From positions 5,810,630 through 5,874,629 of the forward strand of contig CM026430.1 in assembly GCA_014871385.1 (NCBI GenBank): a DNA stretch of 64,000 bases. The letters are read 5' to 3'. Numbering within the stretch: the first letter of the stretch is position 1; every line of letters begins with the position of its first letter. Positions 8,804 through 48,918 of this stretch are shown here, piece after piece. Below the pieces are notes generated by a model. That model made no database searches, was not told the DNA's origin, and saw only the letters and a program-made list of their open reading frames with translations. Position numbers and translations under genes: made by a program. Origin of the DNA: Ceratodon purpureus. Lineage: Eukaryota > Streptophyta > Bryopsida > Pseudoditrichales > Ditrichaceae.

Positions 8804-10980
8804 TATTGATTTGACAATAGTTTTATCTTAAATCTTTTTAAATCTTTTTTAATAAAAAAACATTGTCACAATATCATGTCACTACCCTATTTGATATCCG
8901 TCACAACACTATGTCATGAAATCATCCAAATCTTACATTCATACCTTTCATCCGTAGTTCCATATTGTTCCTAAAGGTTCCCATGTCCCTTCCATGTTTT
9001 GAATTGATTCTCACTTTTCCAATGGCCAATACAATTCTTGCGCTTTCTTTAGTTGCATTGTTGTTAGAGCGAGAGACTAAGTGCTAATAACGTATTGTGA
9101 ATTGAAGAATGAACACAAGCTTATCCAAGCCAAAAAGAGAGTGGCCGTCGATGGCCACGGTTTTTATACTTTAGGGTGAGAGGTACAATTAGCCCAAAAG
9201 ATTGCTCAGTCAAGTGACTGTGCATTTAATAAGCCGTTAAGTCTTTATCACTTAAGTAGTAGAGGATTGGTTAGCTCAGATTTTAACCCCCAAATGCCTG
9301 AGCCTATGACCACGGTTTAGTTTGATAACATGTGTATCTAGCTAAGAAAAGTTTAAAATTCATATTTTACATTATTTATAGTAGCAAAATAGAGCATCCA
9401 AAGTCAAAGTCAAAAACAAAGAAAATTCATATCAAATATAGGTTATACTAAAAAATTATGAAATATTTACCATAGATGAATATGACAACCAAAAACCTTA
9501 TATTAGTTACCGTGCTCATAAAATTATGTTTTAATTCAAAAATATGATGAAAAAACCTAAAACCGTGGAAAATCAAGAAGTAGACACGGTTATACCCCTT
9601 CATCTTATACCAGCTATAAATCACTCAATTTTAGGTATTTTTCAAAATTTTAAATTGGAATGGAAAAAAGATTTGCCAAACTACATTTCATTAGTTTACC
9701 TCAACTGCAAAAAAGATCATCCCGATAGTCAAAATTGTGTTTCACCTGTCTGTATCAAGGAATTTTTGAATACATACACGGTATTGATCCTTTTGACTTT
9801 AAGGAGGCACCAAAATTCATGAAATTATTATTTTGAGAATTTGTTAATGAGATTAGATAGATTTCTCACAACTTTACAACATGAAAAAAAAAATGGATGA
9901 AAAATTGTCATTTGGATGACAGTTGTATGGAACTTGGAAAAATGAAAACGACCAGTTTTTGGTTGTTTAGGCGTTTAGGGGTTAAGTAGATATGGCGGTT
10001 ATTAGGAACTTGGAAAGTGGGAACGCATGGGATGAAGCTAGAGTCACCATGGGAGAGAGAATTATTATCTATTTCAACAATCTTCACCAAAGTGACTAGA
10101 TCATTTTATGCCGACCGGAATGATTACTCAAGTATGGAAAGTTGGAAACCCTTAATCATTGTAAAACTGTAATTACATTTAACTTCTCTTCTTCTAGAAC
10201 TTTACTCATGTGCAAATTAACTTACTATCATCTAGTTTCATGTCAATTAAATGGATAAAACCACACTTAGGCATGTCACAAATTGTATGATATGGGAATG
10301 AAATGATTCTATCCTCTATTCTATAATGAAAAGGCATGTTGGACAACAAATTTTGTATAAGAATAGAAGAGGACTAGCAAAATTTGTTGTGTTTTACGAG
10401 ATTGAGATGTCCCTTCCTTTGAAAGAGTCATTGTGTGTGGAGAAGAGATGTAGCAAGTGCTTGTTATAGCTTAGAAGATGGTGTCTCTTTTGGCGAAATG
10501 CCAGCGTTGCCAAAATATGCACATGTCATGATATTAACAATACTTATTCTATCTGTAATATTTGCAAATCAAAGAAGAGGTTTGATAAATGTCATGGTAG
10601 CATCATGGCATGATTAAATTTGGCATGATGTAATATTGAGGTTTATAACAACTCGCATGACATTATTTGGAGGTTAGATTAATCAAATGATGACACATGC
10701 AATAAATGGAGAAAAAATTAAAAAGACAAAACATTATTTAGGTGAATGAAACAAGTTACACTTTGTAATTTAGTAAAGAAGAAGGGGTATTTAAGTAATT
10801 ATGGACAAAACGCTCAATTATGGACTACTTTGCATCATCAGTAGACGTCCAATTCATGTGTTATCCCTCAAATTTAAAGACAAAGATGTCAAATATTTAT
10901 GAAAAAATGCATTCCGTTTACAAGGGATAAAATCATTTGAGTGAATTTATTATAATGTTGAATAGAGGACATCCCAGTCC
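8804..10980. other. AT-rich intergenic DNA, no gene recognised
   Basis: No ORF here has coding character. The stretch near 9060-9180 (GTTAGAGCGAGAGACTAAGTGC and what follows) resembles the edge of an LTR retrotransposon, but no partner LTR or internal domain is seen. The composition changes abruptly to GC-rich near 10980. Confidence 0.5.
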
Positions 10981-11020
10981 CACAGTCATGGCCGAATCTC
11001 TCGGCGAGTGGCTGACTGAG

Positions 11021-11075
11021 AACCCTAAACCCTAGAAACCCTAAACCCTAGAAACCCTAAACCCTAGAAACCCTA
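11021..11075. repeat. Short interstitial telomere-like repeat
   Basis: About three and a half units of a 16-bp repeat, AACCCTAAACCCTAGA, which is built from the plant telomere heptamer CCCTAAA and a variant. It is too short and degenerate to be a chromosome end. It sits between the two leftmost degenerate palindromes of the large element, so it may be part of that element's end. Telo-box promoter motifs are an alternative. Confidence 0.8.
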
Positions 11076-11359
11076 TCCTTAGAAATCTATCTGTTCTAAT
11101 AAAAGGAAATACTTGCTCTGCAAAATGTGGATTTGTGAAGTGAAGCGGGTGAAGGGAAGATCGTCGGCGACCCGCTGAGTGGACACGACTGCCAGGAATC
11201 TCACATTGGGGTGTCCGTCTGTGAGGACTCCGGAGTCGTCGTTTAGAATGAACAGTATTCACGGTCACAACAAATGGAAGTCCTTTGTAGTCGGCTGGCC
11301 GCCGACTAGGAGAGCCAACCTCTTCCTCACTGAACCGACCTCTGGAATCTGAAATACAT

Positions 11360-11660
11360 ATAAAGATGATGAGGAAATAAGTCCTAGTCCTCGTGATAAA
11401 AATGATGAGTAACCTAGTCCTAGTCGGCTATCAGCCGAGTAGGAGAGTAGGGGCTACTAGTCCTAATGATGAGTAAATAAGTCCTAGTCCTAATGATGCA
11501 AATGATGAGTAAGCTAGTCCTAGTCGGCTACCAGCCGAGTAGGAGAGTAGGGGCTACTAGTCCTAATGATGAGTAAATAAGTCCTAGTCCTAATAATGCA
11601 AATGATGAGTAGGCTAGTCCTAGTCGGCTACCAGCCGAGTAGGGGAGTAGGGGCTACTAG
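11360..11660. repeat. 100-bp tandem repeat, about three copies
   Basis: Three tandem units with a period of 100 bp. Each carries a degenerate palindrome of the large element's family (starts at 11423, 11523 and 11623, right arm GCCGAG) followed by GTAGGGGCTACTAG and AAATAAGTCCTAGTCCTAATGA. The units differ by a few substitutions, which indicates fairly recent amplification. It lies near the left edge, where many DNA transposons keep subterminal repeats. Confidence 0.85.
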
Positions 11661-11758
11661 ACTAGGTCGACGTTGGCAATTAGTCGTCCAGAAAATCCTA
11701 GAGAAGTGGATTACTAGAACGTTTACCAGTTTACTAGACGAACTCGTCGGCTGTCCAC

Positions 11759-11818
11759 TGTAGAAGAAGGTCGCATACTGTAGAAGCAGGTCGCATACTG
11801 TAGAAGTTAGTCGCATAT
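11759..11818. repeat. 20-bp tandem repeat, three copies
   Basis: Three adjoining 20-bp units based on TGTAGAAGCAGGTCGCATAC, with 2-4 differences between units. They end 20 bp before the ATG at 11838, in the presumed leader or promoter of that ORF. Confidence 0.85.
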
Positions 11819-11837
11819 TGTCCAATATTTTGTCGTT

Positions 11838-12359
11838 ATGGTGAGGCGTGGTAGCAATGTGAGACCACTAGGTTATCAGGAGTCAGCGGCTGACCTCGAG
11901 GAGCTCCGGCCATGGTATAGGGCGGTGGTCGCCCGTTCTCGCAACACCGCCATTCCACGTTTCAAGTACATCACACGCCTTCTGCAGCCAGGTGCGGTGT
12001 GGTTTTGGAGTATTGCTCACACCATAGAGTTGATGGAGATCGCTGACGCTTCCGGCATCGCCTTCCCACTGACATTCGAGGAGTCCGAGGAGTCTGAGGA
12101 ATCCGAGAGTGTTGGCAGCGTTCACTTCAGCCACACAGGGGAGGTGTCAACGCAAACCATGTCAACGGCAGGGTGGCTCCGCATTGTTGGCGAAGCATAC
12201 GACAACTTGGAGGGTGCTGGAAGTCGGTGCTCTGGCCAAGATCAGTGGTGCGGAGGGAACGCAAGCCCGCAGTCCACGTATTCGTCGTTTGGATCCGTGC
12301 ATCCATCCGTCGATACTGGGTGTAGTGCTGTCCGAGCCAAGTCTACTGCGAAGGACTGA
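11838..12359 (+). CDS. Unknown small protein of the large element
   Basis: A single ORF of 173 residues with a proper ATG, preceded by 20-bp tandem repeats. The N-terminal half looks like a folded segment (PRFKYITRLLQPGAVWFWS, then IELMEIADASGIAFPLTF). It is followed by an acidic EESEESEESES run and a Ser/Gly-rich tail. There is no signal peptide or membrane span. The ORF itself lacks the palindromes, but it lies inside the palindrome-bearing block, so it is probably a gene of the element. I do not recognise a family. The tail after about residue 120 may be intron read-through, because its composition becomes less protein-like. Confidence 0.4.
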   Translation: MVRRGSNVRPLGYQESAADLEELRPWYRAVVARSRNTAIPRFKYITRLLQPGAVWFWSIAHTIELMEIADASGIAFPLTFEESEESEESESVGSVHFSHTGEVSTQTMSTAGWLRIVGEAYDNLEGAGSRCSGQDQWCGGNASPQSTYSSFGSVHPSVDTGCSAVRAKSTAKD

Positions 12360-13009
12360 TCGCTTCATGGCGTTGGCGACCATCTGCAGCTTTTTGGTTT
12401 TTTGGCTTTAGGGTGAATTACTGTGTGTTAGAACTGTCCAGCTCGTTTTCAATAGAGCTGCTTCACACACTCGGATAGTTGTAGAATTCATGGTTAGTAT
12501 TTGTTACTGAGGCTTTAGGAGTAGTGGCATCTCTGATGTATACACAATACAAAGTAACATGTAAAGGGCGGAACACTACCGTTGTACTCCGATAAGAATA
12601 TAATGAAATGGATAAATATTTTTTCCCAGTTTCTCAAAGCGCATAGTGGTTCTACCAATGTTGTGGAAAGCGTCGGCGGGCAGCCGACTAGAGTAACAGT
12701 GTCCACCGTAAAAATCACAGGCCCTACAATATAGACCAGCCTCACAAAGTCACCGATCATGATGCTTATCTAACATGGTTAGAGGCATCGGCGGACAGCC
12801 GACGACCACCGAAGAAGGAAAAGTAAGGTATCAGAACAACAAATAGAAGACAAAGTGTAATACATGACTAGTATTGGGTCAATGGTAGAATACAATTCTT
12901 ATTCGAGGGAATCACAGTGTTTACAATATTCAACTATAACGTTTACAGAGGAAACCATCACTACCTACATCTTCTAGAGCTAAGATCACAATCGTCGGCG
13001 GGCAGCCGA

Positions 13010-16000
13010 CTAGTCTTCCTCCTCGTCATTCCAGTTCATCGAGATTCCATGCGATTCGAAGTTTGCCATGGCAGCAATCACAACATCTTCGGGTATTAGA
13101 TGGGACTTTGGGGGCCCCTCATGCGTAGTTTTCTTGGTCCTATGAGTGTATACAACGGATTTACACTCCACCCACTCCGCAAGAGTCAACTCCCTTTCCC
13201 ACCGTCTTGTCCAGCACTCTCTCGCAACCTTCTTCTTACCTTCCTTCTTGCCCTTCATCGGAGTCCACCATTCAACCTTGAACTTACCGTAATTAGGACC
13301 AGGCTCTGTAATAACAGGCTCTATCGCCCTACCCATCCAAATGGGTAGGTGGTCTTCCTTACACGGACGACAGAAAACCCAATCGCCACGTAAAACGTCA
13401 CGATATGGGTTAAACACAGACTTCGGCCTAGAGTTTTTCGGACCACAGAAAGGATAGGGCTCCACCTCATCCTCGTCACCGGGACGAATATCCGGATCCG
13501 GTATATATTCGTCCTGTGCATCGAATGTGGTGACGTGGTCCCGCTTCCAGTCTGAGATAGGCCAGAATCCTTCCTGTAAGGTGGCGGAATTGGGGGGCAG
13601 TGGCTCGTTGACCTCCTTTAAAATTCGTTCCCAATACAGTACATATGGTAACATGTCTTGTGCGTATTTCTTATCCCGAGCCATGCCAGTTCTCCAGTAC
13701 TCAATGTACTTAGATAATCCACTTTTAATGAAATTTCTCTTCTCTGAACACTCCGCTGCCCTTGCCACCTCTTTATCCGCGTTCTTCTTGCCCTCATCGA
13801 CTTCAACACTACCCCATAAGTGCTTATGAGGAACCGGTTTGGGATCACCGACGGGCAAACGTGGTTTACCCTCTTTGTCTGCCCTCCACATTTTCACGGG
13901 TTTGCCAGGTGGAAGCCATGACGGATCAGTTGCACGCTTCTTGTACCTCATTACGGGCCACCCCGCATCCTCCCCATCCTCCACCACATAGAACTTAAAA
14001 AGATGCATTTCACTGTGACCTTCTATCGCATTACCTCCGTCGTGATGAAAATCAGCAACATAACTTTTGAAGTCTGCCACTTCCTGAACAACCTCTGGAA
14101 TAAAGGCAACTGTCTTCTGAGAATCCATGAATGCCTTCATAAGGTCGGCAAGGCAGTATGTGTTCTTTCGCTTAATGAGTTTCGACAGGTGACTGAAGTG
14201 GGCGTCGATGTCCTCATGTGTGTGTCCCACAATCAGGAAACCAACTGTAACTTCCTTGAATATTCGCCTCGCCGTCAGCAACGAGCAGAATGCTAGAAGA
14301 AACCGGTTCTTGTTGTCCTTCGCAGAATTGTCAAGCTGCAGATACAACTTCTTCGGCAAAGGAACAGCAGGCCTACCAGGCAGAGGTGGAGTGAGTGGCT
14401 CATCTCTAGAAGGTGGAATTGAGGGGATGCAACGTGACGATCCATGCATTAGCGCTGCAAAGAATTCATTCTGTGGCGGTGCCTCGAAGAGTGCTTTTGA
14501 CTCCCGGACAGGTAGTCTCTCCAAGGCACGGAATACCCTGCACAACGAGGAGATTGTGAAATTTGGGTCTCTTGGCCACAGGGCAGTTGCATAGTGTGCG
14601 TAGGCGCCATCTCCGTGACCGTGAGTCAGCATTCCAGTACAGGAAATCGGAATTTGACCAAGCCCTGCCGTAGCCTTCGTGATACGTTGCATGCGGGGGA
14701 TCGCTGTTTTCGATGTGTCCATCTTATCATGTATGATGCATAGGAACTCAGTAGGACTCTGTATAGATTGGGTTGTCCATCCGTAATAAATGTTGCGACA
14801 AGCTCGCTGATAGTTCAAATGCCTGGTCCTATCCTCTGTCAAGCTCTGCCACTCGTCCGACCCTCTAGGATACTTGGCAATGAGTTCAACGAGGAAGTCA
14901 CACTCAGTGCACTTGGAGAAATTACTTCCTACTGCCTTGACCTCAACGTTGCGGAAGTACTCCTTCCTCATGCGACTAACGGAGGACTGCGAAATCAGCT
15001 TCGCGTTGCACTGCTCATTGACCTGAATAGCACAGAGTGAGGTCGATCAGTTGGGAAGTTCGTCATCCAGTCGGCGGGCAGCCGACGATAGTAATCACTA
15101 CAATTCAGTAAACTATCCAAAGTGAAAGAAGATGAGGAGGAACTTACGGCGTTGGCCATTTCGCGCATGTGGTTCCAGTTCATCGCAGACGGGAGTACTT
15201 TGAGCGCGGCCACTCTCTTCTTGCCAATCATCCGAAACTCATTGGGCATTTGGTCGGCATTCTCATTAACGATAGTGGTCAACGTCGCGCGGGCCTGGAT
15301 TGTGTGAATCTGGGGGCGATGTACACCGGAATTTCCGTGACTCCCACTGACACGACCACTTCGGGCCGCAGCCTTGTAGCTGTAGTACGCGGATTTCGAT
15401 ACTCCGTGAATGATATACCACGCCACTTCACATACGTCAACGTTCGCAAGAGTAACATAGAGCTTCCGCTTGCCGGGTACAGTATGTAAGTGCCCTTGCA
15501 CAGCGAAGGACATCTCTCGCCTCGACTGGAATGTTGTTGCGTAAAATTTACGCCGAATACTCACTGTATCTTCCCATCTAAAAGTCTGGCAACATCGGTC
15601 CTTGCAACAGCGCTTTGAGCTCACTAAGCGGCATTCAGCAGGGACAACCATTCGACGAAGCTTAGTGGAAGAGACGTCATCTTTTTCGCGGACTTTCCTC
15701 CGCACCGATCGATAGGCATTCTTCGGGACACCATCCAGACCATCGTCCGCGTCGGCGTCTGCTAAATTCTCGGAGCAGTAAGTAATTATATCAGAGAGGA
15801 GGTGACCCCCTTCTAACCGAGCGTGAGTCAGACGCCATCTGAGAGTTGTCATCTGCAGATGATCGTCTTCAGAGACGAAGAGAACCCCAACCTCTGTATC
15901 CCCTAGGACTTCATCATCACATGCCTCGTCCGGTAAACATACTTGAATCATTGCTCTACCACGGACTGATAGATCATCATTAAGAAGTTCGACATACCGA

Positions 16001-16920
16001 TTTCTCCAGAGGTGGCGGTCAGGATAAGAAGCATCTGGAGTGGAAGGAATACCCGAGGTCCCGGAATCCGGACCCCAACAATGATCATCTGTTTCTACGT
16101 CGGATTCCCCTTGATTAGACACATCGTCGTCACTGCTGATATTCATTGGAGACCTAGTCCCCAGATCCTGCTCAGACGGAGCGGAGTTGCTTTCATCAAT
16201 TTCTTCATCTTCGTTCCCCAAGTGAGGCTCTGTCGGCGGGCAGCCGACGGGACATGTGCCAGCCAACGCGCCGTTCACAAGTGGACAGACCTTGTATCCA
16301 CTCCAAAGTACCAATCGCCCCACAGCACACCCGATCGTTAACACATCCGGTAACTCGCAGAAAGCAGGTGTTTCAGAGAATTCTGGATTGACGGACGACA
16401 CTCTCACTATTAGAAAGAAGCTGTGAGGAATCAAGAACCCCTCCCACGTTCCTTTAGGAGAGCACTCCATAATGACTCCAGCGGCAACACAACGCTTTGA
16501 GCCTCCGGATTCCTCGAGGAGCGCAACTTCCATCTGCTCTGCGAGGTCCAGGAATTCTTGAACGGGCTTGACATCGTCTTCAACATCCGTCGGCGGGCAG
16601 CCGACGGCCTTGATGTCATCGTCTTCCACCTCTCCGAAAGGCCTGAGGTCAGCCGCCTCCCACAATATCATTTGTCCTAAGCAGTTGCTCAAGGACTTCG
16701 CACCCTCATCCGGAAATGGTATATTCATTTCCATGCTGTCTGAAACCTCAATCACTTTTACCACCACCACTATAGGATCAAATTCTACAACACGTTGGAT
16801 CACTGCCCTGCCTGCATAATAGAGCCCAGAATGAGTAAGGGCCACGACAACGCCCTTTTTAACCTTCCACCGCCCTGATCGGCCATTCCTTAGAAACGTC
16901 TGGATCGGCTCTACTTCCAT
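13010..16920 (-). CDS. DUF7869-family transposase-like protein
   Basis: Two exons, 16920-15148 and 15022-13010, joined in phase 0, give about 1,263 residues. The start is the first in-frame ATG; the frame stays open upstream to 17010 but without an ATG. The N-terminal part has about three copies of a small beta-rich module (for example VVALTHSGLYYAGRAVI and ending QMILWEA) that resembles DUF8039 repeats of plant transposons. Next comes a Cys cluster (CRLVSSKRCCKDRCC) and a segment typical of this family. Exon 2 carries a CTEC motif, an acidic site HDKMD, then YLQLDNSAKDNKNR and VGHTHEDIDAHFS, which are plausible RNaseH/DDE-type acidic positions. A C-terminal GDWVFCRP module with WW residues resembles a chromatin-reader fold. 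The expected role is nuclear DNA transposition. Palindromes interrupt the coding sequence at 16232 and 16589, read as VGCPPT, and one lies in the intron. The stop codon abuts another. Confidence 0.75.
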
Positions 16921-17929
16921 TGGATAAGAGATGAAGACCTCGTCGGCGGACAGCCGACAGGGTCGACGGGAAGTGTCCCCGCCGACGGAGTAAAATGTAT
17001 CCGCCGACAACGAAGACGACTCGGCGGGCAGCCGACGCGGATCCTACGACTCGGAGTGTGCACAGAAATAGCATCCGCCGACGATGACGGACACGTCCGC
17101 CGACAGAAATTGCAGGGGACCTGAGTCGAGAAGCAGTATGATGTCCCTAACCTGTCCAATCAGAGACTCCTCTCAACCGTCCAATTAGAAACGATAGACG
17201 AAGAGAACAGAAACGGCAACAGAAGGTGCGGGACAGTTAAGCACATGCGGGAATAAAAACGGTCCTCTCAGGAAACGTGTGCGTCAGGAGCACTCTCAGA
17301 GGGAATCGAAAGTGCAATGACAGAAATAGAATGAAGTATGCGCATCTGACGGGGGGTTAGTTATGAATTCCCAGGAGTACAAATTGGCGCCAGAATCGAA
17401 TTCAATTTTGCGCGCCTTGGACAGATCAAGATCCCATCATGGCGGCGAGATGCCCCCGCCGTCACAGAACAATGTTGGTTCATTATTACGAATTTGAACG
17501 TGGCGATTGGAGCAGCTGTCATATCACATGCGCAGGCCATCATGACTGGGTGACGGATTGAAAAAAAGTCAAAAGACGTCCCATCATCATCCTACGTGGC
17601 GTGATGGGACGGATGTTAGGGATGACCATCCATGCATGGATGGTATGTACATAGCCATACGTCATGACCCATCGGGCGTGACGATTCAGTCTCGGGAGGT
17701 GGGGGTCTGCAGGGTATACACCCGCCACTCCCGACATTTCCTCCTCATTTCCAGCCTTCTCTTTCTCAGCTCTCTTTTGTCCTCTTCTCAGCGCTCCGCA
17801 GAGGTCGCGTCGGCTGCTAGGTTTTTCTGCGTCGGCTGCTAGGGTTGAGGGCGTCGGCTCCTTCGCCTGCGCGCGTCGGCTGCTGTTCGTGGATCATCCG
17901 CCGACGGTGAAAGGCCATCCGCCGACGAC
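16921..17929. promoter_or_regulatory. Divergent promoter region of the large element
   Basis: About 1 kb lies between the start codons of the transposase-like gene (minus) and the ParB-like gene (plus). It holds two full palindromes (16942, 17020) and several half sites, CCGCCGAC or CGTCGGCT, clustered at 16981-17110 and 17805-17930, the latter right up to the ATG at 17930. No clear TATA box is seen. The clustering of half sites next to both start codons suggests a protein-binding control region, which is inference. Confidence 0.45.
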
Positions 17930-20900
17930 ATGGCAGCCTCCGAGAGTGGGTAAGTTGTCCAGTCGGCTGTCCGCCGACGCTCCCCTTCTTGAGTCCTTCA
18001 AGTTTTCAATTTCTCGCCTGGGTTTGTCCCTCCCGTCGGCTGTCCGCCGACGCTCCCCTTCTTGAGTCCTTCAAGTTTTCAATTTCTCGCCTGGGTTTGT
18101 CCCTCCCGTCGGCTGTTCGCCGACGCCACCCCTTCTTGAGTCCTTCAAGTTTTCAATTTCTCGCCTGGGTTTGTCCCTCCCGTCGGCTGTCCGCCGACGC
18201 CACCCCTTCTTGAGTCCTTCAAGTTTTCAATTTCTCGCCTGGGTTTGTCCCTCCCGTCGGCTGTCCGCCGACGCCACCCCTTCTTTTGTCCTTCATGTTT
18301 CTGCTTTTCGCATGAGTTTGTTCCTCCCGTCGGCTGTCCGCCGATGCCACCCCTGCTTTTGTCCTTCGTGTTTCTGTTTTCTTGCATGAGTTTGTCCCTC
18401 CCGTCGGCTGTCCGCCGACGCCGTGACCCCTTCTTTTGCCCTTCATGTTTTGTGTTCTGGCGCATGGGGTTGTTCCTCCGTCGGCTCACCGCCGACGCCA
18501 CCCCTTTCTGAGTCCTTCATTTTTCTATTTTCTCACATGGGTTATTCCCCCCGTCGGCTGTCCGCCGATGGAGTGAAAAACTGATGGTCTAATCTTGTGA
18601 TTCTAATTTTGCAGGGCGAAGGTCGACTCCACCGCAAAACCGAATGGGTTACGTTGGCTCTGTGACAAGGTTGTTGATCCTAAAGTAGAAATACTCGCAC
18701 GGGGCTTGAAACCGAGGGTGACATTCCTCGCTGATTCGAAGATAACGGAGTGGGGCATCACCTGGCGTGACACTCCCATGTCGCTGGGCTTCGTGACCAA
18801 AATAGGTCAGAAGCAAATGGCAGGTGGACCAAGATTTGAGATTATTGGTTCCAGGGAATGCGACGATGACGACAACGTGTTCTTGGTGTTTGCATCGGTT
18901 CCTGTCGCGGAGGGTCAACCAGTGGACTGCTTCGCGGTTGAAATTCCGGTTGAGAAGTGCATGGACGACTTGTGCTCTAAAGAAGTACAGGATGCGGCTA
19001 CTTGGGGCAGGGGTGAGAACATAGCTGTTGAACAGATACTCGACGTGATTGATACGCTCGGGGACAAAGTGATGGTAGAGAGGACGAAGAACTTGGTTAA
19101 GCCTGCAGCAAAGAAAAGAGGCGGCCGCAAGTCTGCTGTAGAAGCGGGCACTGGTACAGTCACCCCCGAGACCGGAGAGACACAGACGACAGGGGAGTCA
19201 TCGAGAAGGAAGAAGGGAAAGGCAGCGGCTGCTGAGGGCGAGGGTGCGAAGAAGAAAGGTGGGAAGAAGGAAGAGAAGAAGCAGACCGTGGCGGAAGCTC
19301 TCATGCTCGCAAACAATCTCACTTCCAAAACAAAGGACACCGACGTCCTTGCCATGTACCAGACGTTGGAGGAGGGACTTGGGCACTGCTTCCCCAACGG
19401 GCAACGTGCCCTTCCTTGTCAGATTCCATATAACAGGATACACATAGCTCCCGACGAATTCAAGTACAGAGCGATATTCAGGAAGAGGCAGGATCAGATA
19501 AGTCTTTTCTACAAAGGACTTGGAGCAATCCGGAAGAAGCCCGAGCTGTACTGCCTTCCTATGAGTGGTGACCCCAGAGTAAAGGATCCAGTGACGGGCG
19601 AGATTGTTAAGCTTAAAGGCTTGGAAGGACTTCTTCGACCTTGGATGGGCCTAAATATCAAGTATTCACTTAGACAGGATGACGGCAAAGAGAAGCTGGT
19701 ACCTTGGTATGAAGATGAGGGCATCCACTGGTACATAATTGGGGGCCAGCACACGTTTGAGGCTTGTCGAGAACTGGGAGAGAAGGAACCACTGGACTCG
19801 CCTATGCGGCAGTATTACCTTAACCACGATATTATTCCTGTATATTCTGATGACAAGGATACCCTCATAAAGGTCTCTAACGCATTAAACATCGAGGTGA
19901 AGGATAAAGTCGCCGAAGTAAGTTTCAGGTCCCAGCTGACGAAGATGCGCGCCAAATGGATCGAGCGGGGGAGGATCGAGAAGAAAGATGACTTCAGCGC
20001 ATGGAAGGTAATTTACATCTTTCTCTTTTCCTGTTGTTTCCATGTAGTTGAAAGTCGTCGGCGGCCCGCCGACGCTCAGGTGGTTTTCCGTATTGTAATT
20101 GTGGGATTTATTTATCGATTTCATTTTCTTCTTCCTTGCAGGAGTTCTGCAAGGAGTACCTCAGTCCGATTCTCGGAAAGACCCCTACGTCCCAAACCTT
20201 GAAGCTGCCCTTAGTCTTCGTTTCTGATGAAACATACAACGAGTGGCAACTGGTGTTCGACGCCTGGGAGGAGGGGAGGATCATCGGGGAGGACGGTCTG
20301 AAACCAGGATTTCCCCCAAAGCCAGCCCGCCGGGACATAACATTCAACGACATGCAGTACGTGATCGGTCTTCGGGACCACGAATGCAAGAGGCTGGCCA
20401 AGGAAATTCTGGACCTTAAAGTGTACGTCAAGGTCACTGGGAAAGAGGTGGTTCAACGGGATGGAACATCAGTGGAGAATTGGTGTAAGCGTGTGAAATT
20501 CGAGTATATTGTCCGGAACGAGCTCATGTGTATTTACAGGGGCTTTGCACTGAGGAAACCAGGGATTGGGAAGCAGATTGAGTGGACCATGGATGACTGG
20601 AATTCCCTTGAAGTCGAGAAGGGGTTCAATGATACAATGGTTAGTAATATTCGGGCTGACTTGGAAGATAGTCCTGAGGGGAAGGAGTGGCTTAAGGGAC
20701 GGAATCATCCGCTCACGCCGTTGCAAGGGCCAACTCCAGAATTCTTCAAAGACATTGTGCAAAAATACTGTAAGTCGGATGTGGACCAGTCTTCGCAGTC
20801 GTCTGTACAGTTCGATGTTCGGATTGCAGAGGACCTGGGTGAAGTGTGCACAGCTCTTGACGTTCGCGGAGCATTCTCCTTCAACAAGGCGCAGTATGAG

Positions 20901-22792
20901 ATGTTCGTGGTCTTTGGCTACGATCCAGCGGGAAAGGAGATGCCTAACATGCGACAACAACACGTTATAACTGTCGCTGAGAGGATTCACCGTGAGGTGG
21001 AGGAGGAGGTCATTCTGGATGGGGAGGTAGATACAATTAAGGTGAATAAGCTTGTCACCCCATCCTTGTGGCTACTCGATGCTGAGTGTAATCACACTCT
21101 TCAAGGCGTGTCAAGGCTGACGAGTAATTCGTGGACGGTTCATACTATGCACTACTTCCCTGATAGTTCCGCCGGGTTTCAAAGGAGTTCTCTCATTGAC
21201 TCTAGACCCAAGGTTCATGTGTCCGTTATGTATCCAAGAACAACGCCCGGGGATGCATGGAATACCTTCTCAGACTTCACTGGTTTGAAACGTCCGCTTC
21301 CTCCCTATGTGGACGAAGGAGAAGATCATCTTGGGGAGGATTGGTCAAATGATCACTGCCACGCTAGTTTCTCTTTCCTCCAATCTCTTCTGGAGAAAGC
21401 GATGCAGTTTGAGGACGTTCGGGTGATCAATTGCTGGGGAGGGGGGAACGTCACGGCCCTCGCTCTGGTAAGTTACTGCAGTCTCTTCTGGTGCCTTCGC
21501 TGTTTGCTCACCGATCGTCGGCTGGCAGCCGACGCTGATTGAATCCTTCGTGTTTCTTGGGCAGAAGATGTCCTTAACCGTTTCGTCTTGTTCTGCTGCA
21601 GAAAAACCATTTGACTGTAATTGAGATCGTGCGTACCGAGGAAGAGAGATACGAAGCGCACTGTCGGGTTCGGAATATGACGTTCATTCCTGGCGTCTAT
21701 AACGTGCCCGTCCAAGCTCCAGTTCAGACCACGCAGTCTGGGGCCGAGCCGTCTGTCCCCGCCTGTGCTAGAGGCAGGACTGGCTCTCTCACGGCTGCCG
21801 ACTTGGGTGTGAATGCGGAGGAGGCCCATTTGGTCGGGAAGGGTGGATGTATGGGTTCGGGGAAGACTGCGGGGGTTCGCTCACAGAGTTTTCTGGACTC
21901 CGACGACGATGTCGACGAGGAGCCACCAGATGTACCCGACCCAGACGTTGAAGATGAAGCTGGAGATGCTGAGGAACAGCCAAGAAACGAGGACGACCAA
22001 GCTGAGGCTCGCATTCCAAGTGGAGATGCAGAGGTAGAGGAGCAAGACACGGAGGAATTAGACTATGAACCAGAACCCGACGAATTACCACTGGAAGAAT
22101 CGAATCCTCGTTACGTGAACCCACCGCTGTCGCAAGTTCTACGGGAGACCGGAGCTGACTCCCTGAGCTTCGGTATTATTTCTCCTACATTTCAAGAGCA
22201 GGGGACTCCTCCCGCCGAGCCAGAACGTGATTTAGACCAGGCGGGGCGTCCAAAGAAGATGCAGGTTCCTCTAGCATCGAGGCCTGACGATGAAGTGGTT
22301 CGCCGTGTCCAGAAGCCAACCCAGGAGCCTGCAGTGAGCATTGAAGGGCATGTTCCTCCTGCTGCCGTCGGCGGGCAGCCGACGGCAGACGAGCAAACCT
22401 CATCTAACCCCTCTGCCAAGACCAAGTTGACAGGGAAGTCAATCGCATTCGTCACTCAAGGTGTGAAGGGCGCAACTCGGATGATTGGCCCGGATGAGAA
22501 CCCTCTGGTGTATACACGATCAATGAAGAGAAGTAAGACCGATGGTACTGCGCAGGATTCCTCTCTTGTGGGTAACTTATCCCGTGATTCCTCAGGGGTT
22601 CAGGAAGGGGAGGAGTCCTCTGGGAAGGGCAAACGGAAGGCTGCTTCGAAGAAGACTTCCTCCAAGAAGGGCACATCTGGGGAAGAGCACATGAGTCCCA
22701 AAAATGTGGACGCTCCACAGGACGTTCTGTCACCTGTGCGGGCATCCAAACGGGAGCCTAGGCCGAAGAAGCACAAAGGTGGAGGTCAGTGA
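17930..22792 (+). CDS. Large protein with ParB/Srx-like domain
   Basis: Four exons, 17930-17949, 18615-20007, 20142-21467 and 21602-22792, keep frame and give about 1,309 residues. A Lys-rich disordered linker lies near residues 140-200. At about residue 360 the sequence HWYIIGGQHTFEACRELG, followed by HDIIPVYSDDKDTLIKVSNALN, matches the GG-x-H/R-x-x-A core and following strand of the ParB/sulfiredoxin fold. In bacteria that fold binds CTP and loads on palindromic parS sites. A long region of unknown fold follows. The last exon is acidic, then rich in Ser, Pro and Lys with basic patches, which suggests nuclear location. A palindrome at 22367 is translated in frame as VGGQPT. Introns 1, 2 and 3 each contain palindromes. 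A GTCAGT donor at 22785 is in phase with the HAD exon at 23025, so a fusion transcript is possible. Confidence 0.65.
17962..18569. repeat. Minisatellite of 73-77 bp units in intron 1, nine palindromes
   Basis: Nine units, each with a palindrome (starts 17962, 18035, 18108, 18182, 18256, 18329, 18403, 18480, 18553) followed by a similar linker such as CTTGAGTCCTTCAAGTTTTC. The first five are nearly identical and the last four diverge, mainly in the linker. The palindrome arms stay conserved while the linkers drift, except for single changes in units six and nine. The array fills almost the whole first intron of the ParB-like gene. Confidence 0.95.
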
Positions 22793-23024
22793 ATCAGGCG
22801 GTGGCCCAGTCCATCTTTTAAATGCCTGCATTGATAATTTAGTGTAGTGATCGGGCTCTAGGATTGTGTTAGATGTTTGTACTGCCAAGTATGAATAAAT
22901 TTTCGGTAAATGCCAAGTTGTACGCTTTCCCTTTTTTCAAATATTGTTGCTTGCAAGTCGGCTGTCCGCCGACCGTCATCCTAACCGTCACGTTTGTCCT
23001 CTGCTTCGTTTTCTGTCACTCCAG

Positions 23025-23794
23025 AGTCCGCGGACAAGGAAGTCCATGGAAAACTTCACGAAGATAGACCCAGTGCAGTTCTGGAGCAGGGACCTCCACC
23101 TCTGAATCCACTTCACATAGCCCCGGAACAGGCTGGTACTCAGGTACACGATCCAGTGCTGAAGTACTTTCTTGTTCTGGATATTAACGGCCTGCTATTA
23201 GTCCAGACGAAGCAGGGTACTAGGTGGAATACTAAGCTTAGACCGGGTTTAGAGAGGTTCCTAGAGTTCTGCCTGGACAATTTCGAGGTGGTCTTCTGGA
23301 GCTGCGTTCAGGAAAAGAGGTTTCAGATTCTGTGGAAAGCGTTGCAGCAGCGCTGTCCTCGTCTAGATGCCGAAGTGCGCTACAAGTTCGACCAGAGTTT
23401 CTGCGAGACTTGCGTACATAAGGCTAGTAGGGAGTTTTATTTGAAGAGACTCCAGACCCTCTTTGACCTCGATGACGGGCTGAAGGGGACGGGGGCGTCT
23501 TCAATTAACACTCTCTTGGTTGATGATTCCCCTTATAAGAATGTGGCAAACACTCCTTGGAACGCTGTGCACCCTACACCATATACCTTCGAGTCGAAGG
23601 AGTCGGAAAGTAAGAGGAATTATCTGCTTGGAGAATTGATTCCTTGGCTTACCAGTTTGAAAGAATCCAAACTCCCCGTGCCCGAGTACTGCCAGAAACA
23701 TTCCGAATTCGGTCAGCGTCGTCTGTTTCCGGGGGATGAAGCTTATAGTCTCTTCTCTCCACACATTGATTGCCCTAAACGAAAGAGAACATAG
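23025..23794 (+). CDS. FCP1/NLI-type HAD module 1
   Basis: An exon-like ORF after a CACTCCAG acceptor. It has no in-frame ATG before the domain, so an upstream exon is needed, and the ParB-like gene donor at 22785 fits in phase. The HAD fold of FCP1/SCP-type phosphatases is recognisable: motif I LVLDINGLL, then RPGLERFLEFCLDNFEVVFWS, and the acidic motif NTLLVDDSPYKN. Members normally dephosphorylate Ser residues, for example on the RNA polymerase II tail. Here the nucleophile Asp is kept but the second Asp of DxD is Asn, as in some plant relatives. The C-terminus is basic (PKRKRT). AATAAA lies downstream near 23883, and an earlier one near 22893 precedes this exon. Confidence 0.65.
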
Positions 23795-24051
23795 TAGATG
23801 TAGAAACTGTTTTAGAGAGCATGCACATGATTCAGTCGGCTGACAGCCGATGGGATCTTCATGTATTTAGACTTTTACAGTAAATAAAGTTTTCCTCCTT
23901 TTAAATATATGAGAACGGAACTCAGTGTCGAGACTGTGTATTCTGTCGTGGGTGTCTTATTGTGTCTCCATTTGTACACTAGAGCAAGTATGAATTGTGA
24001 GCATGCGATTGATCACCGGAATTTTCTTGGAATTTGTCCTTCATTTTTCAG

Positions 24052-25149
24052 GAGTCACTGGAGGATGACGCTGAAATTAAAGTGCACCAGGGACCTTCCC
24101 TTCTTAGTATGCTCTTGGAGGAGTACCCAACATCTCCTGATGGTGATGCTCTCAGAGAAGAGTCTCCGGGAGCGGAAGCCGAGAATGAAAGTGATGGGGA
24201 GGACGAGTACGACTATCCACTCGGCGGGCCGCCGACGCTGTCTGCTGCACATAGCTCTGGCCGGTGTGCGATGGCTTCCACCTCGTTCGTCGAGACCAAC
24301 GTCGCGATCCCGCGCACCGGTTCCCCGCGCGATGATTCCGTCAATGTCAGCACTGATATTATTGCGCGTAATATTGAGGTACCTCTCCAACGATACTACC
24401 TTGTCCTTGACATTAAGGGGTTGCTCATCGCGGAGCACCACGGGTATATCGGTGATGACCTGAAGACAAAAATTCATATCCGGGCTAGACCAGGACTTCT
24501 TTCATTTCTAGAGTTCTGCACGGCGAATTTCGAGGTAGTCTTTTGGTCCACGGTTTCTGAAAAGAATCTCGATCGTCACTTCCAGAAGCTGTTAGCCATT
24601 CATCCCTTGCTCATGAGCAATTACAGACGCCTTCCAGGATTCTGGTGTGATATCTCAACAAGGACTAATCCGCATGGGAAACGGGAGTACTTGTTGAAGC
24701 GTCTGGATAGACTTTTCTGCGACACTAGGCTACTGGCTCGATCAGGTGCCACTGTCCAGAATACCCTACTGGTAGACGACCGCCCTTATAGGAATGTACT
24801 TAATCATCCATTTAGCGCTGTCCATCCTAATTCCTTTTTCTGGGACTCTGCAGAGTGCAAAGAACCTCAGCCCACCCCCAATCCCTATTTAACTAGGGTA
24901 GTTACACCATTCCTTGCAGGACTTAAGCAGTCTGGATTGGATGTCCAGGAGTATTGTAGGAGGAATTCTAGCGTGGGGAAGCCACGTCTTTTTCCAGAAT
25001 CTCGCGAATACCAGAAGTATAGGGAGGTTATTCCTTCTCATGCATGCGGGTTTGACGTCCCGGGTGATCCTGGATCTTGGTTTGTGAATTTACCTTGTCC
25101 TCCGGAGGCCCCTGGTAGTTCCATCGTCGGCGGGCAGCCGACTGATTAG
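24052..25149 (+). CDS. FCP1/NLI-type HAD module 2
   Basis: An ORF after a TTTTTCAG acceptor; the first in-frame ATG is at 24109, which would give 346 residues. The N-terminal 90 residues are acidic and disordered and include a palindrome (24220) read as LGGPPT. The HAD domain follows: motif I LVLDIKGLL, then RPGLLSFLEFCTANFEVVFWS, and NTLLVDDRPYRN. It is a clear paralogue of the module at 23025. The second Asp of DxD is Lys, so the usual acid/base residue is missing and catalysis is doubtful. The ORF ends within 10 bp of a palindrome (25126) that supplies the last residues VGGQPTD and leads into the stop. Confidence 0.65.
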   Translation, partial: ESLEDDAEIKVHQGPSLLSMLLEEYPTSPDGDALREESPGAEAENESDGEDEYDYPLGGPPTLSAAHSSGRCAMASTSFVETNVAIPRTGSPRDDSVNVSTDIIARNIEVPLQRYYLVLDIKGLLIAEHHGYIGDDLKTKIHIRARPGLLSFLEFCTANFEVVFWSTVSEKNLDRHFQKLLAIHPLLMSNYRRLPGFWCDISTRTNPHGKREYLLKRLDRLFCDTRLLARSGATVQNTLLVDDRPYRNVLNHPFSAVHPNSFFWDSAECKEPQPTPNPYLTRVVTPFLAGLKQSGLDVQEYCRRNSSVGKPRLFPESREYQKYREVIPSHACGFDVPGDPGSWFVNLPCPPEAPGSSIVGGQPTD

Positions 25150-25439
25150 AGCCTACATCATCGGCGCCACTAGTTTTAAAAATCACATATGATACTCTGC
25201 ACTCTTTAGTTTAATACGCTAAGACTGTTCCCTTTCTGAACTTCCCTGCACCACACAATTGTTTCCAGTGCTGCAATTCGGTACTTCTTTTTGTAGATGC
25301 ATGCATGACATTTCACTTGCTGCACATTTACCTTTGAGGTTTCTTCAATGCATCGACGACTTTGAATGTAGTCCATTTCTTTCATATACTTCGTCCTGTT
25401 CTTTGATTTCCTTCACTGATTGCATTTCATATTCTTCAG

Positions 25440-26117
25440 GGTTCCTCGTTTTATTTCAAATGCCTTCACGGTCCACATCATCATGTCAAGAAATGTATTG
25501 TCCTATGCGTCAATGGCCTTCTCTGCTATGTGGATCCCAGGATAGAGGCTTTGCCATGGGATACGCATCGGAATGTAGTGAAGCGCCCAGGTTTGAAGAA
25601 GCTTTTCGACATGCTTTTCTTGCATTTCCATGTTGGTCTGTGGTCGAAGATGCCCTTGGGAGAACTGAAGCCTTTACTCACACATATTCTGCCGGCCGGT
25701 GTAATGGAGAGGTTGTCCTTCGTGTATAGCAGAAGTGACCTTATCGACCGGGAGAATTTCCCCTGGAGTTATAAGACGTTAGGTCAAGTTTGCTCCAAGG
25801 TACAGTCTAGAAACGTCTGCAAACTAGATCAGGTGCTATTTGTGGATGTTGACCCGAGGTCATTGAGGAGGACACCAAACTGTATGTGCTACATTCCTTG
25901 GCCTTTTCAGGGTCATCTAAACTTTCCGAACGATGACGGCGTTATACCTAACATTGCTACAGATATCCTTCCTCTGGTTTATCCCTTGCACAAGTTCGGA
26001 TCTGTACCGGAGTATATGGCGCAGGCGTGTAGGCCGGGGCAAGTGCACTGGGCAATTGAAGCTGCGAGAAAGTTTGGACGTGCACGAGTGGACTGGACTG
26101 AAGTTTGCTGGGACTGA
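25440..26117 (+). CDS. HAD module 3, catalytically degenerate
   Basis: An open frame after a TTCTTCAG acceptor, without an early in-frame ATG. The order of motifs matches the two HAD modules upstream, but the key residues are lost. Motif I reads IVLCVNGLL, with Cys in place of the nucleophile Asp. The third acidic motif reads LFVDVDPRSLRR. Between them is KKLFDMLFLHFHVGLWS, equivalent to the FEVVFWS strand of the others. The frame is nevertheless uninterrupted for about 225 residues, which argues for selection as a pseudo-enzyme or for recent decay. It may be an alternative terminal exon or a separate gene. A palindrome follows at 26184. Confidence 0.5.
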   Translation, partial: GSSFYFKCLHGPHHHVKKCIVLCVNGLLCYVDPRIEALPWDTHRNVVKRPGLKKLFDMLFLHFHVGLWSKMPLGELKPLLTHILPAGVMERLSFVYSRSDLIDRENFPWSYKTLGQVCSKVQSRNVCKLDQVLFVDVDPRSLRRTPNCMCYIPWPFQGHLNFPNDDGVIPNIATDILPLVYPLHKFGSVPEYMAQACRPGQVHWAIEAARKFGRARVDWTEVCWD

Positions 26118-26664
26118 GTTAGGCGGACTTTTTCGCCTCCAATTTGCACTTCTTCCCTCCTCCTGACCAACAGAACACCTTCCATCGGCTGCCCGCCGAC
26201 TTGGTCGACCCGTTTGTGCGGCCTTCAAATATATGATTTACTCATTGACCTTACGGCTATGCTCTCAGGGAAATAGTTTTCAGAGTAGGTTATAATGTGA
26301 TAGGATTTACGTGAACTTGGTACATAGTGCTGGGTGTAGACTTAATGTTGTAGGACTTCAGGACTCAAAGTGCTACGGGACTAGTTAGTTTACTGGTTCT
26401 ATTATCGGCGGGTCGCCGACTCTGTATTGTACATTTCATTACTTGAATCAACATGATATTCTTTAAAGTATTCATTGTAACTCTTATTCTGCATTATATG
26501 TCGCAATCTTCGGGTTCATATATCCATCACTGGCAAATTCCGCCCATGCACATCTCGATGTCTAGTTTTGCATTCCATATTCTGTGGTATTCATGTACAA
26601 TGACACTGTTCATCTGTGGTCTCCATCCATCGGCGGTCCGCTGAGTTCGCATTGGTCATTTTTG

Positions 26665-26692
26665 AATTCTGGACTTTTTTTTGTCCAGAATT
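26665..26692. repeat. Perfect hairpin at right edge of the element
   Basis: AATTCTGGAC, eight T, then GTCCAGAATT: a 10-bp perfect stem with an 8-nt loop. It lies 20 bp beyond the last palindrome and just before the switch to AT-rich DNA. It could mark the end of the element or a transcript end. Confidence 0.75.
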
Positions 26693-29135
26693 ACCTAAAT
26701 ATCCCTTGAAGACATTGTTTTATTATTATTTTATAAAATATAAAATTGTCTTTCATTTCTTTTTAAAAGAATACACCCTCTTTCATTATCTTGTTACACA
26801 ATAAACCCTGGGTACCATTATTGTGTCAAATTATACATTATCCTAAATATTATTGTAATCAATATTATGACATTATCACTCTTTGGATGGTTTCAAGATT
26901 GTTTCAGTTATATTGTAGAATATCTTATAGTGTTAAGAGGAATTCAACACACTGATCACAAAGAGTAGGGCCCAAGTGGAACATATCTATTAGCAACGAC
27001 GGGATCAAGATCAAGCTAACGGAGAAATATACTCAGGGCGGGAGGGATTTACAAAATTGAAAACAAGTAACGTCGAATATTTCTGATATGCGTATTCTGC
27101 GTCTTGAACACAGTATGCATCGACGGACCTTTCTTGGAGTGGATTTAATTTAAATGGAGTTGATAATTTCATAGGCCTCGGGGCGGCACTGAGCTTGCAA
27201 CAACCGTACATAGAGGCTGGTTACGAATCCGCCACCGGTGCTAGAATAAGTTTTAACATAGCGTATTGATCAGATCCTATGGTCCAGCCCGTCAATAGGC
27301 AGGCGGTGGAGAGATCTCCTTTTGCTTAATACCATGAGTCTGTTTGCTTCACAGTGAATTGCAAAACAGTATCATGTGTTTGCTGATAGTTGAAATTAGA
27401 ACTAACTTGAAATATGAATGATCCTTGGGGCATGCCAAATGCAGATAAATGTTTTCTACACCAAGGAGGGCACTGGAAATTGCTTTAACATGGACTGGGT
27501 ATATTCACGTCAGTCCCAACATAGTGCTTGGTGCCCCAATTACCGGCACTGAGATGTCATTGTTCATTCTAATGGTAAGCCGAATGTCACATTACACCAG
27601 CCTGCCCCCATATGTCTCAATCATTACATCTTGCTCATCAATCACACACCAGTGCTGAATTTGGTCCATGTGCACAGGATTATAACTTGAACAGGTACAA
27701 AGTTCTTGTTTTATGGAACAGAGATGGTTGGTTTCTGGACCCATGCGCAGACAATTGGCTGGCGTTTCCAACACTTTGTCACTAAGGTTCGCCTCGGTGC
27801 AACTGGCAAAACTTGGACCCCCTGCTACATGTGTCCCCTAGAAGTCCATTGAGACTCGTGTATACAGGGATTTGGCTCTCGGAGTGGACCGTGCTGGCTT
27901 CCTCGAGTGCGCCTCTAAAGACTCACGTGTCAAGTATGTAGCAGCATGGATGTTTGCCCGAACGCTGATGATCCTGGACAAAGGCAACACAACATGCCAG
28001 CCTGCCTTGTGCACCAAATTTAGGTCAATCATTTACTGTTGGGCGGGGTCTGTTCTAGCCTTGCATGGCTTTTCCTAAGCAATGGAACTCTTTTCATATC
28101 TAGTGGCTCTTGGAAATAAACTAAGGAAAAGGAGCAGATTAATGGATCTTAGGCCGTGATCGTTCCTCACAATAATGCATGTCCAAGATAACCGAGGCAG
28201 GGCTATCGGATTAATAGTGTTCATTAAACTATGTGGCTTCAGGATCGACGAGTTATGTACTTTAACCGTAGTACGTAATAATGTGAACTCCGAGATGCCA
28301 GTACTAAAATTGTACTGTACACAGAAGACACCGGAAGGCGTGGTGAAAGGAAAATGCACCCTGTGGAACCAAGTCCAGGAATTTGATAACGCAAGACTCG
28401 TGAGGTTAAATCCTAATCCCTGACGGAAGCGCAATTTGAGTTGTCGTGAAGCAGCGGGAGGCGAGGAAAGAAAGTTGAAGAAAGTATATGAGCGCGAACT
28501 AAAATGTCGGAGGTCGAACTTGGTTGCAACACACGCCAGCAAGCCTTCGGGTAACACAAATGATCCTCGGTTTTGAAAACAAACCCAAATTAATAGTAAA
28601 AGCCTCTTCCGAAACCCTTCCAAAGCCCTTCCGCAGGCAGTCTTTCGAATTAAGTGCAAAGTCCGGGTACTGAAAGTTCAAAGTAAACTTTTCAGGTATT
28701 CACCTAAATTTGGTTCACTAGGTGTACATTTAGCGTTCATGCATGAATTGTAATGAGATGGCCAGTCTCGCTTCACTGAAATCAAAAGTTTGATTAAAAA
28801 GCAATGACGTGACTAGTTTAAATGCACGAGATTCTGGATTAGTAATGTTTTTCAATATGTACATCTTCTACGTTGCAGGTTATAAAAATTTGATTGGTGA
28901 GCAGAAAAAACATCACCTCCACATGTGACTTCTTCTCATACTGTCTTTTACAAAGAAATTTTGTGAAGGATTTGTAAAATCAAAATATACATATTAACAT
29001 CTCATGTTTTGCACTATTGCTGGTGAAGTTATTTTGGAGTCGTCAAACACAGCCCGTGCCGAAACTTTAACATGTCCGGCGGGTGGATTATGCGCTAATT
29101 TGAGCAGTCACGCCCGCTCAAGGCCACCCTCCAGA
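26693..29135. other. Intergenic DNA, no gene recognised
   Basis: AT-rich at first, then more balanced from 27000 to 28700. Several ORFs of 60-190 codons occur, but none has recognisable motifs or consistent splice structure. The stretch 27440-27850 has a faint coding look (for example VLWNRDGWFLDP in one frame) broken by stops, and may be a relic of a gene. The 3' UTR of the CAP gene probably covers the right end. Confidence 0.4.
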
Positions 29136-30857: not shown

Positions 30858-31274
30858 TCAAAAGCAGCACCGTAACCTGGAAAGGTTTCCAGATCGAACC
30901 AAGTCTGTGAATACAATCTTATCGAGGTATCCAAATTTCCCCCCTAACCGGTTCCGAAGCTTGCTTTTGATAAAGTTCAGGATCGAAAAGGTACGCTCAT
31001 CTTCATAGGAACCAAGTACAGCGATTGCAGCAATGTTCGCAAGCTTCATGTATTCCGACAATTTATTCATGAGGAGGGCATTACAGCCGAGTCTTTGCCA
31101 AAGCCGAGTCACAGGGTTCACATTGTGGGGAGGCTCCATCGACTTTTTAGCATTCCCCTTCATGGTGAGCTTAAACAAACACTGCTGCAAACTTAGCAGG
31201 TGCCAATCCAACGGGGGAATCACTTGCCTGAGATTGCCTTTGGCACTGCTGCCCACTGATCTCGTGGTACAGAA

Positions 31275-32028
31275 GGGGGGAAGCACAATAAAGTGAACCA
31301 CAAAAGTGCTTATCTTTTTTCCAATTTCAGCCCCTTCTGTAAAGACTAGAGAAAGTGGGATTTACGTTATGTTGATGCAAAATTAAGTTTGGGATACGGA
31401 AAGTAGACTTGATCTTCTTCAACTTCCCAAAGTTGCGAGAAAAGATATTAAGTTTACAATGGAAAACGGAGACGTCAAAGTCAGACAAAGTGAATGGTCG
31501 TCATTTGGAAAAGTGAACATATCGGTTTAGGGTTTTGTCCGAAATCACTTTTAATTTCGTGGTGCACTCTATATGTTTAAGAAGTATTCTAAAATAGTCA
31601 ATTAATATACTCATTGATTGGTTTAGGGTTCCAAAAGTACCGCAAGGATACTTTTTAAGAGGGTCACTTCCGCGGTACTTTTAGTGCGTTTTTTTTCACC
31701 GAACATTGTTTTTCAAATTGAAAAAAACATCCTCTAAACTTTAAAGACAATAGATGGCTCCAAATGAAGAAATTAAGACTTTGGAAAAGTTCATTTTCAT
31801 GAATTAGAACTAGTGGTGACTGGTCAGATTAAGTTTCAATTGAAGATGTTCTTTTTATGAAGGTGTATATAAGATACCTTATGACACCCTAGAAAGTGAC
31901 TAAAATGCTCAAAAACTACACCAAAATGCTCAAAATCAGCTCTAAGCCTTAAAAAACAGCACACTTCATATTCACTTGTTGGTGGTCACAATTTGCACTT
32001 TGTGGTCCACTTTATTGTGCTCTCCCCC
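31275..32028. mobile_element. MITE-like TIR element, copy 2, inside hAT relic
   Basis: This is the same family as at 325-1059, with ends GGGGGGAAGCACAATAAAGTG and its near complement. The flanks are AGAA on both sides, a likely 4-bp target duplication or part of a longer imperfect one. It splits the hAT reading frame: coding similarity continues directly on either side, so the insertion is certain. The interior is non-coding. Confidence 0.88.
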
Positions 32029-32655
32029 AGAACCATGCTTTGAGCACCTCCAAGTGCCGTGAAAATAACTCATCGCACTTCTCTTGTAGCCAGTACTGAG
32101 GGAATATGATTCCCAATGCCTCCATCACCTCCGAATCAGGGAATCGTTTATCGAGTTGCTGGATCAACATTTCCGCGGCAGTTGTGCACTGTTCTTTGAC
32201 ACCAAAAATTATCTCTGCCAAGTCATTGCGAGAGACAGGCAAGCAGCGCCCCAAAAGAGGGTCTACTGTATGGGCCGGGTGAGTGTGATTATTCACACGA
32301 AACCCCAAGGTCTCATGCCCATCATTCAAGTCGGTCACCCATTCATGCTGAATGGTGTGACTGCAATCCCCCACCACATCATGGAAAAGTTTGAAGTGTG
32401 CAGGGCCGAAGGCAGTATGATCATCAACATACATCTCAAAAATCTCGTGTTGACAGATTTTTATAGCTGCAATGAAATCAGATACAAAGACATGACGGGA
32501 CTGTGCAAACTTTATCAATGACTGAATTGATTCCAGCAAGGGGAGGATACAGGGCAAGGCAAAAACCGTAGTGACATCAAGTAGTCGCTGTAGGTTTGCT
32601 TTCGCAACAGATTCCTTCGGTGCATCTTCCGCAAACTTGGCAAGGAGTGCCATTA

Positions 32656-48916: not shown

Positions 48917-48918
<2 letters not shown>

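Follow-up and report, generated by a model that had tools for sequence, protein, structure and literature searches.

A palindromic motif repeated along a DUF7869-bearing DNA transposon of the moss Ceratodon purpureus

Transposons that carry a short motif in many copies have been described in the CACTA and VANDAL groups. In CACTA elements (En/Spm, Tgmt), a motif repeated near the ends must be kept by non-autonomous derivatives and is recognized by an element protein of low conservation; the TNPA sites are cis-determinants of mobility (PMC2613891). TnpA of Spm, a subterminal binder, also activates the silenced element, and MURA lowers the methylation of terminal repeats (PMC10398659). In the VANDAL/VANC system of Arabidopsis, a short motif abounds in a single transposon family and is scarce among other transposable elements, motif-bearing tandem repeats lie in introns and upstream regions, and the element proteins have variable regions (PMC5735166, PMC10398659). 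A motif amplified as tandem repeats, within introns and upstream of genes of a single family, is what VANC-type anti-silencing would lead one to expect (PMC5735166). Here, a transposon with a comparable layout is described from the moss Ceratodon purpureus. It is located in a window of 64,000 nucleotides (C10:5810630-5874629) of the 362-Mb genome, bears a predicted gene with a DUF7869 domain and contains the 17-bp palindrome GTCGGCN5GCCGAC throughout. A first-pass annotation of this stretch had stated that no plant element with such a pattern was known; the subterminal repeats of CACTA and the motifs of VANDAL/VANC are, however, comparable.

The moss element differs from both groups. The VANC21 motif comprises 9 bp and is mainly noncoding (PMC5735166), whereas the moss motif is a 17-bp palindrome that occurs in coding exons, too. 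Compared to CACTA elements, the ends read AAGGG instead of CACTA, the target duplication has 4 bp instead of 3 bp, DUF7869 takes the place of tnp2 and the motif is found all along the element; membership in CACTA (En/Spm) was rejected on the termini and the duplication length. VANC is a DUF1985-type protein. Neither a VANC-type (DUF1985) nor a Mutator transposase domain was found when nine translated frames of the element were scanned against Pfam, and membership in VANDAL was rejected for that reason. Sola transposons likewise have 4-bp target duplications, which are AT-rich in Sola2 (PMC3627910), and Sola1 is listed for Physcomitrella (PMC9033089). A 4-bp duplication was found in all four full copies of the moss element and in 33 of 40 of its miniature inverted-repeat transposable elements (MITEs), but the agreement with Sola concerns the duplication length alone. 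The moss element may work like the CACTA, VANDAL and Sola systems; membership in none of them is claimed. Our literature searches returned no paper on DUF7869, and none of the papers listed (10 of 782) for Ceratodon purpureus transposons, Sola and palindromes combined describes the element. New, to our knowledge, are a motif of such length and palindromic form, its occurrence within coding exons and the fact that MITEs of a DUF7869 element retain it.

A DNA transposon with dispersed palindromes

The element spans positions 10782-26707 of the window (+ strand, 15,926 bp) and is flanked on both sides by the target duplication GAAG. Three other clusters, all on C1 (C1a, C1b and C1c), align with the window exactly from 10782 to 26707, with 97-99% identity in long aligned pieces, and each of the four full copies is enclosed by a 4-bp duplication of its own (gaag, ataa, ttat and atgt). 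Since the ends are exactly common and each copy has its own duplication, the 15,926-bp block is a mobile DNA element. Comparison of the copies places its imperfect terminal inverted repeats at 10782-10811 (5' end, + strand, AAGGGGTATTTAAGTAATTATGGACAAAAC) and 26678-26707 (3' end, - strand, reverse complement AAGGGATATTTAGGTAATTCTGGACAAAAA). Such repeats together with a duplication of fixed length (4/4 full copies, 33/40 MITEs) characterize a cut-and-paste DNA transposon. A search with the 5' end alone gave 358 first-look candidates genome-wide; 40 were scored, all those shown having 99-100% identity. Of 30 five-prime ends, counting that of the element in the window, 28 start with exactly AAGGGG. 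The limits 11000-26645 given by the first-pass annotation were roughly right, the true element being slightly wider; that annotation had not recognized it as a transposon with definite termini.

Within 11000-26645, the palindrome occurs in 19 perfect copies, 11 copies with one mismatch and two with two, besides several with three mismatches (26629 among them). The dense clustering reported earlier is thus real, as is its confinement to the block: the remainder of the window contains only two matches, each with three mismatches (4176 and 4248). At up to three mismatches, 46 matches were observed in the whole window versus 7.8 expected from dinucleotide shuffling, and none of 100 shuffles reached 46. 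The refined motif GTCGGCKGNCMGCCGAC, with at most one mismatch, has 26 sites in the element, whereas none of 200 first-order Markov simulations produced any. The 43,607 bases flanking 30 five-prime copies are free of sites at up to three mismatches. Chance or base composition as the origin of the motif density is ruled out by the shuffles, the simulations and the motif-free flanks.

The composition of the motif was derived from the 30 copies that differ from the refined motif at no more than two positions. It is an 8-1-8 palindrome, GTCGGC-K-G-N-C-M-GCCGAC, with variable K (G/T) and M (A/C) and nearly constant arms. The earlier term "perfect" applies to the arms alone, and the spacer is not free, as positions 7 and 11 are K and M in 30 of 30 copies and positions 8 and 10 are G and C in 24 of 30. 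The arm GCCGAC is present in most copies and its first five letters are invariant in the best 30. In its symmetry the motif resembles a DNA sequence recognized by a protein dimer.

Compared with the predicted genes, the sites span promoters, introns, intergenic DNA and coding exons alike, as the first-pass annotation had it. Most sites of the large element are located kilobases from its ends, between genes as well as in introns and coding exons, and the end-proximal copies (62 bp from the 3' end, 218 bp from the 5' end) are the most degenerate. Two tandem arrays contain a palindrome in each unit. The first consists of three 100-bp units at 11366-11665 (+ strand, palindromes at 11423, 11523 and 11623), the second of about nine units of about 73 bp (palindromes from 17962 to 18553) in the predicted intron 1 of the rightward gene (17950-18614, + strand).

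Across the genome, 2,858 perfect palindromes were counted versus three matches for the reversed pattern. Among the first 50 of these sites listed, 49 belong to the three C1 copies and one to a 380-bp MITE. The link between the motif and DUF7869-bearing units suspected from the window therefore holds in that all 50 sites listed, of 2,858, lie in this transposon family. As far as these sites go, the motif is not equally dense in ordinary genes, which the first-pass annotation had named as a finding that would refute its reading, and a motif general to the genome was not borne out on the same count.

The MITE, which contains the listed site C1:2805555, has the same inverted repeats as the large element and the duplication GTAT; beyond its ends, no similarity to the window was found at E 1e-5. 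Its motif lies 57 bp from the 5' end and a half-degenerate copy, GTCGGCGGATGAGCTGAC, 47 bp from the other end. A first look gave 366 candidates of this kind; 40 of them were scored, and all of these were read. Both arms are intact in 32 (K is G in 25 and T in seven), and 54 MITE copies genome-wide combine exact flanks with exact arms.

The palindrome in live and dead copies

Two dead copies on C6 (L118 and L119) have 88% and 74-81% DNA identity to the window and contain stop codons. Homologous sites still align in them (6/6 and 4/6), and their arm positions have changed like the surroundings (11/83 vs. 439/4,176, p 0.37; 11/56 vs. 629/3,439, p 0.73), i.e. they decay at background rate. The sites are therefore old, and nothing is seen to protect them once a copy is dead. 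Because dead copies lose their sites at this rate, the live and mobile lineage likely keeps the motif by selection. Selection on the motif, one of two readings offered in the first-pass annotation, is thus likely, the retention in 32 of 40 MITEs pointing the same way. C6 is likely the sex chromosome; its 110.5 Mb are near the 112.2 Mb of the contig with the UG-tagged gene P0002.

In the three live full copies, K, N and M changed at 12 of 263 positions versus 10 of 1,225 for the arms (p 9e-5; C1a 5/392, C1b 2/413, C1c 3/420 in the arms). Across the 40 MITEs, 8 of 640 motif cells (K left out) are changed versus 309 of 11,381 cells of the interior. At CpG positions, the contrast is 7 of 320 in the motif versus 31 of 200 elsewhere (p 2.5e-8). 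Here, "elsewhere" comprises only three CpG dinucleotides that belong to neither motif, one of which lies at a motif edge, and the copies share changes through common descent. These values supersede an earlier sample of 21 of the 40 MITEs (motif CpG 2/168 vs. 17/105). The first diverged copies found, two in number and 98% identical, had kept the motif. A count over 30 five-prime copies (motif 40/3,939 changed vs. 967/56,213 elsewhere) took in degenerate motifs and misaligned rearranged copies and is not relied on.

K, N and M positions change faster than the background in live copies and in the dead copies L118 and L119, where 12 of 30 have changed (p 4e-4). Changes at these positions, in live as well as dead copies, sometimes come two at once, as if sites converted one another.

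Proposed role of the palindrome and alternatives

We lean, by a little, towards reading the palindrome as the binding site of a dimeric protein, predicted to be element-encoded, whose targets would be all members of the family, as CACTA elements are for TNPA and VANDAL elements for VANC. The MITEs have palindromes near both ends, as CACTA elements have TNPA sites, and the motif is multiplied in tandem in introns and upstream regions of one family, as in VANC systems; therefore, one predicted dimeric protein is proposed for two roles, mobility and anti-silencing. Palindromes near the ends would be cis-determinants of mobility, while the additional internal copies, including the intron 1 array, would recruit the same protein to keep methylation off the element and maintain its expression. 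As likeliest binder and first candidate we propose the protein encoded by the rightward gene, since the largest array lies in that gene's intron 1 and its exons, exon 4 above all, vary freely at the protein level. Transposition itself would be performed by the DUF7869 protein, which is predicted from its modelled fold to be an RNase-H-like DDE transposase.

A bolder version is that moss DUF7869 transposons independently evolved a sequence-specific anti-silencing coat, in which the dimeric element protein would sit on all of the about 30 palindromes, coding exons included; the same word would license parasitic MITEs, the docking code alone marking DNA of the family. We hold this only tentatively and think it rather less than probable. 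The anti-silencing transposons in the literature consulted (VANDAL, Spm and MuDR) are all from flowering plants. If the proposal is true, a moss would harbour a second lineage, to all appearance unrelated, whose palindromic code is longer; this would mean convergence and offer a testable system, with the 380-bp MITE as natural minimal substrate and the dead copies on C6 as natural mutants. For DUF7869, the function of a transposase domain would become likely.

Several points weigh against the proposal. The binding site is a predicted one, and Pfam and NCBIfam scans found no known DNA-binding domain in the element proteins scanned. The copies that were read are the best-scoring ones, and the dead copies number two. 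In the live full copies, the arms show no significant excess conservation over the rest of the element (10/1,225 vs. 593/43,934, p 0.13; tandem arrays set aside in the background). In the MITEs, the contrast between motif and interior reaches only p 0.02, and widening the sample from 21 to 40 weakened it (0.6% to 1.25% of motif cells changed); the CpG comparison has the narrow basis given above.

The palindrome could instead be a mere binding site of the transposase or an accessory protein for excision, like the subterminal repeats of CACTA, with internal copies arising as by-products of tandem duplication or conversion without any anti-silencing role. This is a possible but clearly less probable explanation. 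It fits the MITE, with its palindrome 57 bp and half-degenerate copy 47 bp from the ends, and the degenerate copies 62 bp and 218 bp from the 3' and 5' ends of the large element; these end-proximal copies are, however, the most degenerate, and the majority of sites are kilobases away in introns, coding exons and intergenic spaces.

We find it unlikely that host AP2/ERF factors (DREB/CBF-type) bind the palindrome and that the element is a drought- or cold-responsive transposon. Ceratodon purpureus is stress tolerant, the arm GCCGAC, whose first five letters are invariant in the best 30 copies, equals the DRE/CRT core, and half-sites are found between the divergent genes. Sites in coding exons, 3' regions and non-coding MITEs are nevertheless ill-suited to an enhancer, and monomeric AP2 binding needs no strict 8-1-8 dyad. 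Less plausible still is a self-spreading micro-repeat or conversion hot spot to which no protein binds. The faster change of K, N and M relative to the arms, at times in pairs as if copies converted one another, would suit it, but no listed site lies outside the family, the flanks are free of the motif, dead copies lose it at background rate and most MITEs read retain it. A ParB-parS-like partition or spreading system within a plant transposon is very improbable: the sites are palindromic and the stretch IIGGQHTFEA resembles ParB/sulfiredoxin motifs, yet neither Pfam nor NCBIfam gave a ParB family match and the structure model (pLDDT 34) is unusable, too poor to judge a fold, which leaves the "ParB-like" gene of the first-pass annotation unsupported.

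Genes and further features of the element

Features are on the + strand unless stated otherwise. The 5' part contains two degenerate palindromes (11000 and 11163; 11000-11179) and one with perfect arms (11290-11306) upstream of a small open reading frame (ORF) without known domain (11838-12359, first ATG at 11838). Two palindromes (12672 and 12787; 12672-12803) lie between convergent genes and another (12994-13010) adjoins the stop codon of the gene predicted to encode the transposase (DUF7869, PF25273, 1,261 aa; - strand, 13010-16920, exon 1 16920-15148, exon 2 15022-13010). This gene has one palindrome in its predicted intron (15070-15086), two in coding exon 1 (16232 and 16589; 16232-16605), both encoding VGCPPT, and two just upstream of its ATG (16942 and 17020; 16942-17036). 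Single half-sites (CCGCCGAC / GTCGGCTG) cluster between the two divergent genes (16979-17928, no strand assigned).

The rightward gene, which encodes the candidate motif-binding protein, is predicted at 17930-22784 with the exons 17930-17949, 18615-20007, 20142-21467 and 21602-22784 and has no known domain. In addition to the array in intron 1, palindromes are located in its predicted introns 2 (20057-20073) and 3 (21517-21533), in coding exon 4 (22367-22383, encoding VGGQPT) and at 22957-22973, in what may be an intron 4 or else intergenic DNA. Three NIF/HAD phosphatase-like frames follow in tandem: frame 1 (PF03031, 22985-23794), which may be spliced to the preceding rightward gene, frame 2 (24013-25149), which contains the palindromes 24220 and 25126, and frame 3 (25407-26117). 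A palindrome with one mismatch lies 3' of frame 1 (23835-23851), and three near-perfect or degenerate ones are found near the 3' end (26184, 26404 and 26629; 26184-26645). By eye, the catalytic motif of the frames in 22985-26117 lacks the second Asp; they are possibly pseudo-phosphatases carried by the transposon.

For the rightward protein, one metagenome protein was the sole homolog among the matches listed, and sequence searches of the PDB with its exon 2 and with NIF frame 1 gave no matches. Peptides suggest that the motif may also be present in genes of other species. In Physcomitrium patens, the protein P0005, with 58% identity over exon 2, has VGGPPI and IGGPPT in place of the VGCPPT of the Ceratodon protein; these are the replacements that variation at K and at the motif's outermost DNA positions would permit. 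P0001, a metagenome protein, continues through the second intron and contains the same palindrome-encoded stretch, RRRPAD, and P0004 has RLPAD upstream of its exon 2. Within Ceratodon, P0002 retains the first VGCPPT and no longer has the second. P0010, a relative of exon 1 of the leftward gene, has the precomputed label PF26133, which Pfam scans of P0010 or the exon did not reproduce. A viral origin was rejected: protein searches of viral contigs gave no relative of the element proteins, and the 54 stretches that matched the DNA pattern there, with one site each, were taken as chance.

Two copies on C11 are rearranged. L084 (C11:2730682) has an internal deletion of about 11580-15777 in window coordinates; in L085 (C11:10539926), similarity to the element ends 5 bp past palindrome 12672 and continues in sequence without clear match to the window, perhaps a nested insertion. 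Adjoining the 5' subterminal motif, three units of AACCCTAAACCCTAGAAACCCTA, 16 bp apart and telomere-like by eye, are found at 11021-11075. Outside the element, frames at 30858-34555 resemble hAT transposase by eye, and the very AT-rich region 48001-56000 (GC 25-31%) contains a frame at 50459-50779 with a helix-turn-helix that by eye is mariner-like.

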